Assembly (NCBI GenBank): GCA_016235555.1
Contig: JACRKC010000048.1
Location: 1-64,000, forward strand
Length of the DNA stretch: 64,000 nt
Direction: 5' to 3'
Origin: Verrucomicrobiota bacterium
GTDB lineage: Bacteria > Verrucomicrobiota > Verrucomicrobiia > Opitutales > Opitutaceae
Below, piece by piece: positions 47,182 through 53,139 of this stretch. The first letter of the stretch is position 1; the number at the start of each line of letters is the position of its first letter. Made by a program: the position numbers and the translations under genes. The notes beneath the pieces were generated by a model. The model saw only the letters and a list, made by a program, of their open reading frames with translations, had not been told where the DNA came from and ran no database searches.

Positions 47182-47252
47182 CGGGCGGGACGGCGCCGCG
47201 GGGAGGATGCGGGTGAACCCTTCTCGCGCGCATCCTACGCGCTGGTTCGGTT

Positions 47253-47321
47253 GTAGCGGCGGTCTCCGACCGCCGTCGGTGCGCCGGGGCTTTTCGTCCG
47301 GCGGTCATAGACCGCCGCTAC
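47253..47321. repeat. GTAG-type hairpin pair (GTAGCGGCGGTC family)
   Basis: Starts GTAGCGGCGGTCTCCGACCG and ends CGGCGGTCATAGACCGCCGCTAC in the same form as 21475-21542. Confidence 0.85.
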
Positions 47322-47442
47322 AGCACGCGGTCCCCGGTTTGCGGTGCCCTGGCAGGTCACTTTTCGGTGACAATCGGCTCGCCTGTGCCGAGGGCGGGGC
47401 CAACGGTGGGAGGCACTTTCTCCTCCAGCCCGCCTGCCCGCC

Positions 47443-49107
47443 GTGGAATTACCCAACACTCTCCGGTCCGCCTGCCTGCCCAGCTTGTTTCGCGCCTTGG
47501 CGTTTGGTTGCGTCCTGGCCGTGGCAGTGGGGCGAGCGGCGACGACGGACCAAGCGCTGACGTTTGTGCGTGTCTCGCTCGACACGGAGACGCAGCGGGC
47601 GGACGACAAACTCAGCGATTTTCTGCGGGCCAAGCTCGGCGTGCGGCCGGAAAACCGCGACCTCGAGTATGGCGCGGCGGTCGACACCCTCGTGCACTGG
47701 AACCCCGACGCCAAGGGCCCGCTCGTGGCGCGCGTCACGCCTTACGTTTACGTGGTCGCGGAGATGCTGGGCGCCGACCTGGAAATCCTCGGCACGTATC
47801 TGAGCAAGCGCACGCGGGAGTCGACGTATCACAGTTACCTCGTGCTGCGGAAGGACGCGGGGCTGGCGTCGGGCGACCTCGATGACTTCGTCAAATGGCT
47901 GCGCGAGCGGCCGACGCCGGCGCGGTTCGTTTATCACAACAAATTCTCCACCTCGAGCTACCTGCTGCCGTCGCTCTATTTCCGCAAGGCGGGCATCTAT
48001 GCCGGGAGCGGCACCAACGCCTCGGACCAGAAACACGTGTTCATCCGCGCGGAGAAACCCGCCGGCATCGAAAGCAGCACGGAGTTGGTGCGGATGGTGA
48101 AGCAGCGGCGCGCGGAGTTTGCCGCGGTGTGGGAAGGCACGCAGGCGCGTTTCGCCACGGACCCGGAGCTGATTTTCCTGAAGCTGCCCAACACGCTGCC
48201 GAACGATCTGCTGGTGTTTTCGCAGACCCCCGACCGCACGCTGCGCGACCGTCTGTTGGCGGCGCTGCAGGGGATGAAGGATGCGGACATCAACAGCGGC
48301 GACTTTCTCCGGTGGGTGGACTTCAACACCACGCCGGACGCGCGCCGGGCGCTCTCCGGCCTGCGCTGGTTGACCAAGGCCCCGCCGGCGCCCGCGCCGA
48401 TCAAAATCCGCGCGGCCCACAACGACGGCACGCCGCTCGATCCCGGCGTGCTCGAGGCGGCGAAGCAGGCGGTCGCCCTCTCGGGCACGGAGTTCGTGCT
48501 CTTCGACGAGGATTTCCACAAGCAGTTCGACGTGCTCTGGACGCTCCGGAAGAGCCATGACGACTCGCTCATCATCACGAGCGAATACCCCGACTTCAAC
48601 CTGCCGCCGCAGCGTTTCCACCTCAGCTTCAAGAAGGGCGACCGCGAGAGCCTCGTCGCCCGGATCGAGGAACAGATTTCCAACGGCATGCACCGCGTGC
48701 GCGACGTGTGGCCGTTCGACGACGAGACCCCGACCGTGCTGCGCGACGTGCGCTTCAACCTGCCGGCGGGCGCACAGGTCAAGGCGGTCAAGGTGACGTG
48801 GAACGACTACACCAACAACGACCGCGTGGTCGGCACGCCGTTCGACGTGACGGTGACGGCGGGCGATTTTCACTCGTTCAAATTGAAGGGCGACGGATTC
48901 CCGCGCCGGAGCGATGGCACGCATTACGATTTCGATCCCCTGAGCCCGACGTCGCACCGCGTGATCCTCGTGCGGCCCGCGCCGGACCTGCGGCTGTTCC
49001 GCTACGGCACCTACGCGCTGCTCGGGCTGTTCGTCGCGGCGGCGGCCTTCGCGCTGTGGAGCCTGATGCGCGGGAGCCGGGCAGGACCGGCCGGCGAAAG
49101 CGGATGA
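47443..49107 (+). CDS. PhnD-like binding protein with C-terminal membrane anchor
   Basis: A 554-residue exported protein. A signal peptide (about 1-32, ending GRA-AT) is followed by a PhnD/TAXI-like phosphate/phosphonate-binding fold (about 38-300) with VTPYVYVVAEMLGA near 100, YHSYLVLRKDAGL near 130, the hinge RFVYHNKFSTSSYLLPSLYF near 163 and AAVWEG near 228. An additional domain (about 320-505) and a single transmembrane helix near the C-terminus (about 517-540) follow. Typical PhnD proteins are about 300 residues and lack the second half. The start GTG 47443 is the first plausible one. Its TGA overlaps the ATG of the PAP2-TIR gene (ATGA), so the two are translationally coupled. Confidence 0.82.
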   Translation: MELPNTLRSACLPSLFRALAFGCVLAVAVGRAATTDQALTFVRVSLDTETQRADDKLSDFLRAKLGVRPENRDLEYGAAVDTLVHWNPDAKGPLVARVTPYVYVVAEMLGADLEILGTYLSKRTRESTYHSYLVLRKDAGLASGDLDDFVKWLRERPTPARFVYHNKFSTSSYLLPSLYFRKAGIYAGSGTNASDQKHVFIRAEKPAGIESSTELVRMVKQRRAEFAAVWEGTQARFATDPELIFLKLPNTLPNDLLVFSQTPDRTLRDRLLAALQGMKDADINSGDFLRWVDFNTTPDARRALSGLRWLTKAPPAPAPIKIRAAHNDGTPLDPGVLEAAKQAVALSGTEFVLFDEDFHKQFDVLWTLRKSHDDSLIITSEYPDFNLPPQRFHLSFKKGDRESLVARIEEQISNGMHRVRDVWPFDDETPTVLRDVRFNLPAGAQVKAVKVTWNDYTNNDRVVGTPFDVTVTAGDFHSFKLKGDGFPRRSDGTHYDFDPLSPTSHRVILVRPAPDLRLFRYGTYALLGLFVAAAAFALWSLMRGSRAGPAGESG

Positions 49108-50321
49108 ATGCGCTGCGGAACCTCGTCCTCACCCGGCGCCAGCTGGCGGTGCTGCTGCTCGCGGTGTTTGTCGCGAACTACCTCGAGACGCAGGTCGAGG
49201 AGTGGCTGAAGACGCCGGGCGTTTACGCGCTCGGTTACCGGATCAACCAGGCGTTCCTGGAAATCGAGGGCGGGCTGAATTTCGCGGGTGGCGCGCGACT
49301 GGAGCGCTGGGTGGTGGGCGGGTTTGCGCTGGCGTATTTCGCGGTGCTGCCGCTGCTCGTGGTGGGAACGGCGGTGGCGTGCGGGCGGCGGGAGGGTGTG
49401 GGCTCGCTGCGGGTGTTTTCGCTCGCGGTGGCGTTCAACTACCTCATCGCGCTGCCATGCTTCCTTTTCGTGCCGGTGCCGGAACGCTGGGCGTTTCCCG
49501 GAGCCAAAGCCACGCTCCTCTCCGATCTGCTGAGCACGAGACTGATCGAACTCGTGCGGCCGATCAGCGGGCTCGACAACTGTTTCCCGAGCATGCACGT
49601 CGCGTTGACGGTGATCGCGGTGCTGGCGGCGTATCGCGAGCGATCGCCGTGGCGGCACAGCGTGGCGTGCCTCGGCGGGACCGTGGCGCTCTCGACGTTC
49701 TTCCTCGGGATCCACTGGCTGCCCGACATGATCATGGGCGCGGCCACGGCGGTGGTGTGCTTCGCCGCCGCGGATCGCGTGAACCGCCGCTGGTTCCGCG
49801 AGGAGGTGCCGCCGGCCCAGGTGCCGCGGCCGGCGCCGCATGTCGTGCGGACCCGCCCGAAGACGCCGCCGCCCTTTCCCGCGGCGCGCACGGCCGCGGA
49901 AAAGCTGGTCTTCATCAGCTACCGCCGCGATGGCGGTGCGCGTCTGTCGCGCGTCGTGCAGATGGAACTCGAGCGCCGCGGCTACCCCTGCTTCCTCGAC
50001 GTGGATGACCTCGGACTGGAGCATTTCGACGAGCGCCTGCTGCGGGAGATCGAGAAGGCACCGAATTTCGTGCTGCTGCTCGCGCCGGGCTCCCTCGACC
50101 GCTGCCGGCGCAAGGACGACTGGCTGCGCCGGGAGATCGCGCACGCGTTCAAGCACCACCGCAACGTCGTGCCGCTGCTGGCGGATGGGTTCCGCTTTCC
50201 GCTGGAGGAACAACTGCCGGAGGACCTGCGCGACCTGCCGCGGCTCAACGGTGTGACCTACTCGCACGAGTATTTCGCGGCGGCGTTCGACAAGCTGGAG
50301 AGTTTCCTGCGGACGAAGTGA
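49104..50321 (+). CDS. PAP2-family membrane phosphatase fused to a TIR domain
   Basis: A 405-residue fusion. Residues 1-225 form a six-helix PAP2 membrane domain. The active-site residues follow the PAP2 pattern RP (152-153), PSMH (162-165) and GIHWLPD (His204, Asp208); they should face the periplasm. A Pro-rich linker (about 233-262) leads to a TIR domain (267-405): KLVFISYRRD at the start, DDWLRREI at 338-345 with Glu344 at the position of the catalytic glutamate of NAD-cleaving TIR domains. With six helices the TIR is cytosolic. It may couple an extracytoplasmic signal to NAD cleavage; that is inference. The TIR part could equally be a scaffold. Confidence 0.85.
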   Translation: MNALRNLVLTRRQLAVLLLAVFVANYLETQVEEWLKTPGVYALGYRINQAFLEIEGGLNFAGGARLERWVVGGFALAYFAVLPLLVVGTAVACGRREGVGSLRVFSLAVAFNYLIALPCFLFVPVPERWAFPGAKATLLSDLLSTRLIELVRPISGLDNCFPSMHVALTVIAVLAAYRERSPWRHSVACLGGTVALSTFFLGIHWLPDMIMGAATAVVCFAAADRVNRRWFREEVPPAQVPRPAPHVVRTRPKTPPPFPAARTAAEKLVFISYRRDGGARLSRVVQMELERRGYPCFLDVDDLGLEHFDERLLREIEKAPNFVLLLAPGSLDRCRRKDDWLRREIAHAFKHHRNVVPLLADGFRFPLEEQLPEDLRDLPRLNGVTYSHEYFAAAFDKLESFLRTK

Positions 50322-50395
50322 GGCGGGCGTCCGGGGATTTTCGGAAATTTTGTCCGGAACGCGTCGCGACGCCTGCCACGGGAAAACAAACCACC

Positions 50396-52138
50396 ATGGA
50401 ACGCGACGAGCCAAAGAGCCGGGAGCCTGCAGGCGGGGAGGAGGGCGACGACGTGGCCCTGCTCCGCCGTTACGTGGCTGACCGATCAGAGGCGGCGTTT
50501 GCGGAGCTGGTGCGACGGCGGATCGGGTTGGTCTACGCGGTGGCGGTGCGGCAATGCGGCGGCGATGCGCACCTCGCGGAGGACGTGACGCAGGAGGTGT
50601 TCGCCGACCTCGCACGGAAGGCGGGCACGCTGATGGCGCGGCCGGCGTTGAGCGGCTGGCTCTACCGGGGGGCGCATTTCGCGGCGTCGGATGTCGTGCG
50701 CGCGGAGCGCCGCCGGCGGGCGAGGGAGGAGGCGAGCGGACGCATGAACGAAACCACAGGCGAGGCGGCGGGCGGCATGGTGGACGGTGAGAAACTGCGT
50801 CCGATGCTCGACGCGGCGATGACCGACCTCGACGACGACGATCGCGATGCGGTGACGTTGCGTTACATCGAGGAGAAGTCCTACGCCGAGATCGGCCGGG
50901 CGCTGCGGCTGGCGGAAGACACGGCGCGCAAACGGGTCGAGCGGGCGCTCGACAAACTGCACGCGGCGCTCGCGCGGCGGGGCGTGACCTCGACGAACGC
51001 GGCGCTCGCCCTCGCGCTGGCCAATCAGGCGGCGGCGACCGTGCCGGCCGGTCTGGTGGCGAGCGTGACGGCGGGGGCGCTGGCGGGTGCGGCGACCGGA
51101 GCGGGCGCGGTGGGCTGGGGTCTGGCCGGATTTATGGGCACAAAAGCAACGGTGGGAATCGTCGGCGCGCTGGTGCTCGCGGGCATCGGCACGGCATGGT
51201 GGGGCACGGCGCAGGCGCGGCAGGCGGAGGAGGCGCTGGCGGCGGCCAAGCGGGAGCAGGCTGCGCTGAACGCGAAATTGAACGGTCTCGAAGCGCAGGT
51301 GCAGACGGAGACACGGCGCGTGGCGGCGGCCGAGGCGGAGAACGCGCGGCTGCTGGCGGCGGCGGAGAAATTGAGAGCAGCGCCCGTCGACGCGGCTCCG
51401 GCTGCGCATGGGGCGCCAGTCACTTCCGGGATGGTGCAAGCTCGCTGGCGGCGGGCGCAGGAGCTGGCAAAGGATGGTGATCCGGCGGAGGCGTTGCAGG
51501 AACTGCTTTGGTGCTACGACGTGGGGATGGTGCATGTTTCGAGCATGCTGGGGGTGCGTTTGAGTTCGGCGCTGAGCGCGCTGGCGAAGCTGGGCGAGCG
51601 TTACCCCGCGGCGCTGGCGGCGTTGCGGGAGCGACGGGAAAAGTCGCGGGCACGCGTGATGGCTGACGAAAACGATTTCTCGGTGGCGCAAGAATTCGGC
51701 GCGATCAATCGTGCTCTGAAAGACGAGGCGACGAACCTCGCCCTGTTCGATCAGTTGCCGCCAGGCGATCGCCGGCGGTTGCCGCTTTCAAACAGCTCGA
51801 ACAGCCTCCTGATGGAGGCTCGTCGCTACAAGGATGCGGTGGAAGGGAGGCCATACTCCATGATCAGTTCTCTGTTTGAATTGAGGATAAAGCAGACGAT
51901 CGCGCCAAACCATCCCGATCCGGTCGGGGCGCGACAGCGAAATCGCGAAGCAGCAATCACTGGTGCCGTGAAAGACATTGAGATGCTCGCCGGCGCTGGT
52001 GACCTTGCTCACGCCAGAATGCTCGCCGACCGGCTGCTCGCGTTTGACAGTGCGGACAGCACAAAAGCGCTGATTCAAAAGCACGCAGACCGCGCTGGCC
52101 AACCTGCGCTTATGGCGCCGACCTCAAGCCCGAAGTGA
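50396..52138 (+). CDS. ECF-type sigma factor with membrane-anchored C-terminal extension
   Basis: A 580-residue protein. Residues 22-195 are a sigma-70 family unit: region 2 (AFAELVRRRIGLVYAVAVRQ, DVTQEVFADLARK) and region 4 (TLRYIEEKSYAEIGRALRL, then DTARKRVERALDKL), so it should bind core polymerase and a promoter. A transmembrane helix follows (about 253-272), then a coiled coil (about 275-330) and a helical, TPR-like region (about 345-570). Such long extensions are common in Planctomycetes/Verrucomicrobia sigma factors and likely hold the sigma factor at the membrane until released. The ATG at 50396 is preferred to upstream codons. The gene lies 74 bp after the PAP2-TIR gene. Confidence 0.88.
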   Translation: MERDEPKSREPAGGEEGDDVALLRRYVADRSEAAFAELVRRRIGLVYAVAVRQCGGDAHLAEDVTQEVFADLARKAGTLMARPALSGWLYRGAHFAASDVVRAERRRRAREEASGRMNETTGEAAGGMVDGEKLRPMLDAAMTDLDDDDRDAVTLRYIEEKSYAEIGRALRLAEDTARKRVERALDKLHAALARRGVTSTNAALALALANQAAATVPAGLVASVTAGALAGAATGAGAVGWGLAGFMGTKATVGIVGALVLAGIGTAWWGTAQARQAEEALAAAKREQAALNAKLNGLEAQVQTETRRVAAAEAENARLLAAAEKLRAAPVDAAPAAHGAPVTSGMVQARWRRAQELAKDGDPAEALQELLWCYDVGMVHVSSMLGVRLSSALSALAKLGERYPAALAALRERREKSRARVMADENDFSVAQEFGAINRALKDEATNLALFDQLPPGDRRRLPLSNSSNSLLMEARRYKDAVEGRPYSMISSLFELRIKQTIAPNHPDPVGARQRNREAAITGAVKDIEMLAGAGDLAHARMLADRLLAFDSADSTKALIQKHADRAGQPALMAPTSSPK

Positions 52139-53139
52139 TGTCCATCATGAACGCGAAAAAACTTTCTGCGGGAGCGTTCGTTCTGGGCGGAATGGGAATG
52201 ACGGTTTTTGGACTGCTGGAACATCAAGCCTCCCGGCGGACGATCGAAGCGTTGATGTTCGCAAATCGGCGGAACAGCGAAATGCAGGAACGGATTGCAG
52301 GATTGGAGAATTCGCGGGCCGCAGCGTTCGCGCGGGCGGAGGCGGCCGAGCGGGACAATGCCGCGCTGACGAAGGCGGTCCAGACGACCGAGGCGGCGCT
52401 CAACCAGGCAGCCACGGCGCCGGTCACCCGGGAGGCGTTTGGCATTCGGGTGAAGCAGGCGCTGGCATTGGTGACGGAAGGCGATCCCGCCGCAGCCACG
52501 CGGAACCTCTTGTGGTGCTTTGACACCGGCGTAGCGCGGCCGGATCTGCTGGCGGGCGTGCAGATGTTTTCAATCGTCTCGGCATTGGCGAAGCTGGGCG
52601 AATCAGACCCGACGGCGGTGGCGGCATTGCGTGAAAGGTTCGAGAATGCCAAACGGCGCGTGCTCGGCAGCCCCGACGATACGGAGCCATTGTCAGTGAT
52701 GGGGACGATCGCCCGGGCGCTGAAGGACAGCCAAGCCATGGTGCCAGTGTTCGACGCGATCCCGGCGTCTGATCCACGCCGGGCAAAGATCGCGATCTAC
52801 GCGGCGGACGGATTGATCGCAGATCGGCGCTATGCCGAAGCCATGATCGGGCGAACCTATGCTACGATGAGTGCGAACTTAGAGTCGGCGATGCGCGATA
52901 CGGTGCCGGCGTCCGCCTCGGCTGAGGTGGCCGAGCGAATGAGGGCCAGCATGCGCAGCTACGCCGCCAAGACCGCGGCCATCAATATCGAGGTGCTGGC
53001 TGGTGCCGGCGACCTCGCCCATGCCCGTGAGCTGGCCGCGCGGGTGCTCGCGCTCGATGGTTCGGAGGCGACGCGGGCGCTGCTGCAAACGCACTTGGAG
53101 CGGGCGGGGCAGCCGAGGTTGCTCGCGAACGGCCCGTGA
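52138..53139 (+). CDS. Membrane-anchored partial paralogue of the sigma factor extension
   Basis: A 333-residue protein with a transmembrane helix near 12-28 (AFVLGGMGMTVFGLLE), a coiled coil (about 35-95), and a helical domain (about 100-325) homologous to residues 345-570 of the upstream sigma factor: TEGDPAAATRNLLWCFDTGV against KDGDPAEALQELLWCYDVGM, SALAKLGE in both, and EVLAGAGDLAHARELAARVL against EMLAGAGDLAHARMLADRLL. So it is the extension without the sigma domains. The sigma stop overlaps its start (TGATG), giving coupled translation. It may compete with or assemble with the sigma factor extension. Confidence 0.8.
   Translation: MSIMNAKKLSAGAFVLGGMGMTVFGLLEHQASRRTIEALMFANRRNSEMQERIAGLENSRAAAFARAEAAERDNAALTKAVQTTEAALNQAATAPVTREAFGIRVKQALALVTEGDPAAATRNLLWCFDTGVARPDLLAGVQMFSIVSALAKLGESDPTAVAALRERFENAKRRVLGSPDDTEPLSVMGTIARALKDSQAMVPVFDAIPASDPRRAKIAIYAADGLIADRRYAEAMIGRTYATMSANLESAMRDTVPASASAEVAERMRASMRSYAAKTAAINIEVLAGAGDLAHARELAARVLALDGSEATRALLQTHLERAGQPRLLANGP

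Follow-up and report, generated by a model that had tools for sequence, protein, structure and literature searches.

Bacterial TIR-domain NADases are mostly known as cytosolic effectors, which are triggered by nucleotide signals, by short Argonautes or by STAND proteins. In animals, the TIR enzyme SARM1 kills injured nerve fibres. No bacterial SARM1 homologues were found in a survey from 2020 (PMC7075850), and trees published in a 2026 preprint nest SARM1 within a clade of bacterial proteins (PMC13142454). Among periplasmic binding proteins, AioX and ArrX are oxyanion sensors for membrane kinases, and other members of the AioX/ArrX-PhnD family serve ABC transporters (PMC5908839).

A gene pair in the window, i.e. 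the whole stretch of 64,000 nucleotides analysed here, points to a receptor by which a bacterium would destroy NAD on detecting an extracellular signal. In the model favoured here, which we regard as about evenly balanced between right and wrong, the two products form a two-protein, ligand-gated membrane NADase with an AioX-like sensor and a SARM1-like output. The first gene (47443..49107; plus strand, as are all features of the pair given below) has a GTG start and encodes a PhnD-like protein of 554 aa, predicted to be membrane-anchored and periplasmic. The second (49104..50321) encodes a PAP2-TIR fusion of 405 aa. The two are joined by an ATGA junction: the ATG of the fusion, at 49104, overlaps the TGA stop of the preceding gene at 49105-49107, so that both open reading frames and the overlap described in the first-pass annotation were recovered. 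The same junction is present in all three genomes in which the pair was found, which bears out the proposal of one expression unit. The GC content at codon position 3 is 0.89 for either gene, and with the closest relative as reference, dN/dS amounts to ~0.15-0.3 for every domain of the pair, values that are rough with dS near 1; because of this position-3 GC and a dN well below dS, both genes are taken to be real and under purifying selection. A terminator-like hairpin with a T-rich tail lies directly 3' of the TIR stop (50330..50345) and is weakly consistent with a two-gene unit, such sites numbering 5 in the region versus 3.2 expected. Just upstream of the pair, at 47250-47325, the window holds an imperfect palindrome, TTGTAGCGGCGGTCTCCGACCGCCG...GGCGGTCATAGACCGCCGCTACAG, which resembles a REP-type repeat.

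Full-length relatives are found in two other genomes: a Verrucomicrobia MAG (L014), with 70% identity to the window in the fusion and 66% in the PhnD-like protein, and a genome of the same family (G080), with 51% identity in the fusion. The G080 PhnD-like gene spans two contig ends that share ~358 nearly identical bases, from which we infer that the pair is complete in this genome, too. Although only three members are known, the fusion has its PhnD-like neighbour in each of them, and neither partner was found alone in the genomes searched (282 relatives, 388 genomes at the level of the phylum, 384 at that of the class and 373 at that of the order; the sets overlap); the link between a PAP2-TIR protein and a PhnD-like gene, which had been singled out for checking, thus holds in 3/3 genomes, and none of the refuting conditions named beforehand that could be examined spoke against the earlier description. 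Profile searches of the phylum, class and order sets revealed no PAP2-TIR fusion and no C-terminal domain of the PhnD-like type beyond the window and G080, and plasmids and viral contigs held no full-length relative of the pair. The pair is rare, and it is linked wherever it is seen. The flanks in the window are unlike those of L014; the pair itself is kept in both. Related sulfatase-like genes lie near the pair in both relatives (L014:53-1690 and L075:1615-2544) and are absent from the window. A sensing of sulfate, suggested by this neighbour common to L014 and G080, was dropped as a candidate, since the window has no such gene.

In the window, the pair is surrounded by an aminotransferase, a 212-aa orphan, a sigma-70-like gene and a cyclase. 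The sigma-70-like protein (window 50396-53139) carries a long C-terminal extension, and the product of the next gene has a similar extension without sigma regions. This neighbourhood bears on the alternative that the same machinery serves phage defence: the envelope parts would sense adsorption, DNA injection or envelope damage, and NAD depletion by the TIR domain would cause abortive infection. NAD-depleting TIR domains are common antiphage effectors, the source genome (G000, 8 Mb) holds 50 matches to TIR_2 in open frames that range from 112 to 1199 aa, and the sparse distribution of the pair would fit such a purpose. The surroundings, however, do not: PADLOC gave no match in the ten flanking genes except a resemblance in the cyclase domain, no defence genes are evident around the relatives, that of L014 included, and the lack of any full-length relative in the plasmids and viral contigs searched likewise speaks against it, as does the conserved loop of the binding pocket, which points to a soluble ligand. 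On the pair itself, PADLOC profiles match partially and over the TIR region only, the PhnD-like protein having no match. The location lends no support to phage defence as the purpose, which we consider unlikely. Where the first-pass annotation had left a sensing or defence role to inference, the sensing part has been strengthened, since the PhnD-like domain matches AioX/ArrX in fold and no partner genes of an ABC transporter accompany it, and the defence part has found no positional backing.

The ligand-gated model assigns to the PAP2 part the position between sensor and output. The PAP2 core covers residues 67-230 of the fusion (49302..49793) and matches PAP2_3 (PF14378; 7.1e-8) and PAP2 (PF01569; 1.3e-6), both above the curated cut-offs. 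In the AlphaFold model of the fusion, six long helices (2-35, 68-95, 100-122, 164-178, 184-200 and 206-231) are followed by a TIR fold; hydropathy likewise indicates six membrane helices and then the TIR domain. According to the positive-inside rule, the PAP2 motifs would be periplasmic and the TIR domain cytosolic. A six-helix PAP2 domain with PSMH at 162-165, His204 and Asp208 (within HWLPD 204-208) is present as originally described. The designation as a lipid-phosphatase module, in contrast, does not extend to the family: in the G080 fusion (L016), His204 is replaced by Thr and Asp208 by Gly, and still the frame is intact and the TIR and PhnD parts are conserved. Phosphatase chemistry is therefore not required family-wide. 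It could nevertheless operate in the window protein as output or trigger, with the PhnD-like partner sensing phosphate or a headgroup freed from a lipid of the periplasmic face. For this alternative, it can be said that the window and L014 fusions both retain His165 of the PSMH motif, His204 and Asp208, just as the PAP2 motifs are kept in a stand-alone PAP2 protein (L073:1450-2331); in view of the G080 substitutions, we rate it as quite unlikely. Identity to the two relatives is 72% and 42% in the PAP2 region, below the 78% and 67% of the TIR domain. Across the fusion members, a role in structure or transduction is the simpler common denominator, and PAP2 may serve mainly to relay a signal through the membrane. 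Homology between the stand-alone L073 protein and the fusion extends over residues 41-225, and L073 is a possible source of the PAP2 part of the fusion.

The presumed output of the membrane NADase is the TIR domain at residues 266-405 (49899..50318), predicted to be cytosolic, which is of the SARM1 type. It matches TIR_2 (PF13676) with 3.1e-10, above the curated cut-off. Against solved structures, phmmer pairs it with human SARM1 at an E-value of 1.2e-30, the best chain other than SARM1/TIR-1 reaching 0.0042, and the top Foldseek matches are again SARM1/TIR-1, with a TM-score of ~0.9 and ~40% identity for SARM1. Identical to SARM1 are Y568, R569, R570, D594, C629, W638, E642, N679, S684, H685 and Y687; SARM1 Trp662 corresponds to Phe365, and the stretch with SARM1 Cys635 is missing from the fusion (alignment gap). 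Glu344, in the motif DDWLRREI, is the counterpart of SARM1 Glu642. As judged from the sequence, the domain would thus be of the NAD-cleaving type that had been suspected, with the main residues of the catalytic pocket kept. A conserved TIR glutamate does not always imply activity (PMC7075850). The TIR domain is also the best-conserved part of the fusion, at 78, 67 and 74% identity between the three members. In a tree, the TIR domains of the three fusions form one clade (support 100/99), and SARM1 and other bacterial SARM1-type TIR domains fall on the side of the fusion, apart from the other TIR domains of the genome (92/90), a placement that applies to this side as a whole and not to the branching order within it, which the tree does not resolve.

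Conceivably, the TIR domain does not cleave NAD itself and serves as a scaffold or adaptor that recruits the other TIR proteins of the genome. TIR domains often self-associate, and the 50 matches in the source genome would offer partners; the catalytic pocket residues, however, are kept, and the putative partners are of a distant type. A SARM1-type TIR profile scores 214 bits for the fusion versus at most 38 for the other TIR domains of the source genome, the fusion being the only SARM1-type domain among the 50 matches. A mere adaptor function is, accordingly, very unlikely in our estimate.

For the sensor half of the ligand-gated model, the PhnD-like protein comprises a signal peptide (residues ~1-33), a type II binding-protein domain (34-310), a family-specific domain of ~200 aa (311-520; 48373..49002) and a single C-terminal TM helix (~517-544). 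Phosphonate-bd (PF12974) matches residues 95-281 with an E-value of 5.7e-10, above the curated cut-off. The PhnD domain is modelled by AlphaFold with a pLDDT of mostly 70-93, and its best fold matches are PtxB, PhnD, ArrX and AioX (Foldseek E 1e-12). The earlier assignment as a PhnD-type sensor in the periplasm is supported. The motif KFSTSS, codons 167-172 (47941..47958), corresponds to the S-T-S(-G) anion-binding loop of PhnD-type proteins. All three members retain KFSTS and, in the pocket region, Tyr103; Tyr129 is Arg in G080. The domain at residues 311-520 shares 77% and 62% identity with its counterparts in the two relatives; for the window protein, Pfam gives no match to this part, and its AlphaFold model is of low confidence (pLDDT mostly <50). 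In a profile search of 388 genomes of the phylum, it was found in none but the source genome. Genes for an ABC permease or ATPase were seen neither next to the pair in the window nor among those L014 neighbours that were examined. That the pair is a unit for phosphonate or phosphate acquisition or lipid recycling, with a minor regulatory function of the TIR domain, is hardly credible: both the PhnD and the PAP2 family do serve such purposes elsewhere, but here no gene for a transporter permease or ATPase lies close by, a TM helix tethers the binding protein, one member dispenses with the catalytic PAP2 residues, and no domain of the fusion is as well conserved as the TIR domain.

The membrane NADase model builds on the gene structure, the conservation of the pair, the identities and folds of its domains, the catalytic residues and a predicted topology. 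From this basis, we infer ligand binding and complex formation, clustering, NAD cleavage and a physiological outcome, which could follow one another in this manner: Anchored through its C-terminal helix, the PhnD-like protein would stay in the periplasm and bind a small oxyanion or phosphonate-like ligand. In its bound (or unbound) state, it would dock on the PAP2 helix bundle, probably via the 311-520 domain and the TM helix. Docking may rearrange or cluster the PAP2 bundle and thereby bring the cytosolic SARM1-type TIR domains together. The gathered domains would then cleave NAD+ into nicotinamide and ADP-ribose or cyclic ADP-ribose, and the outcome may be a growth stop, cell death or a signal.

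If true, the wiring of a SARM1-type TIR domain to a periplasmic binding protein would constitute an outside-in NADase receptor, the ligand of which could be found by standard binding assays. More tentatively, and with rather more doubt than confidence, the pair may be seen as a counterpart of Toll-like receptors, with a separate small-molecule-binding ectodomain, a PAP2 (pseudo)enzyme as transducer and a SARM1-type TIR domain that destroys NAD+; it would then fall into a larger, as yet undescribed group of bacterial TM receptors of the SARM1 type, the lineage from which the animal SARM1 TIR domain may derive. Bacterial relatives of the SARM1 TIR domain in receptor-like architectures bear on the origin of SARM1.

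Each part of the pair is of a known kind, and the combination is not found in the searchable open-access literature; a search for PAP2-TIR or PhnD-TIR units found no description there, which, being confined to open-access texts, is weak evidence of absence. With PAP2_3 (PF14378) proteins such as L073, the fusion shares the membrane fold and the PSxH...HxxxD motifs; unlike the fusion, these proteins have no TIR domain, and the catalytic His/Asp are lost in one fusion member. The membrane conflict system built on EACC1 (Kaur et al. 2020, PMC7159879) likewise consists of two genes for a membrane sensor and an effector, and some of its members have a TM helix and an extracellular periplasmic-binding-protein domain (PMC7159879); it is caspase-based, however, and its constant domains are unrelated to those of the pair. 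Most of the SARM1-type TIR proteins fetched from elsewhere have a membrane segment: L018:1474-3012 and L074:1501-3045, from two other genomes, are CHASE2-TM-TIR proteins, which unite the CHASE2 sensor domain, the membrane segment and the TIR domain in one polypeptide, and L015, L017, L035, L036 and L038 are TIR-TM-ectodomain proteins, all with a SARM1-type TIR domain. L037 (STAND-TPR type) and the examined part of L072 have no such segment. Membrane receptors of the SARM1 type may form a broader class in bacteria; a description of CHASE2-TM-TIR proteins was not found in the open-access literature. The attachment of the TIR domain to a membrane segment is common to these proteins and to the fusion, whereas each of them is a lone protein, to which a sensor or an unknown domain is fused, and none has a PAP2 part. 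AioX-AioS and ArrX resemble the pair in that a periplasmic sensor of the PhnD fold is encoded beside a membrane signalling protein (PMC5908839); the output there is a membrane histidine kinase, whereas the pair ends in a TIR domain, and its sensor has a TM anchor of its own and an extra domain of 200 aa. With SARM1 and C. elegans TIR-1, finally, i.e. the clade of NAD+ hydrolase TIR domains, the fusion shares a TIR domain of ~40% identity, the same fold and the main catalytic residues; in SARM1, regulation falls to ARM and SAM domains in the cytosol, which the pair replaces by the PAP2 bundle in the membrane together with a partner in the periplasm.
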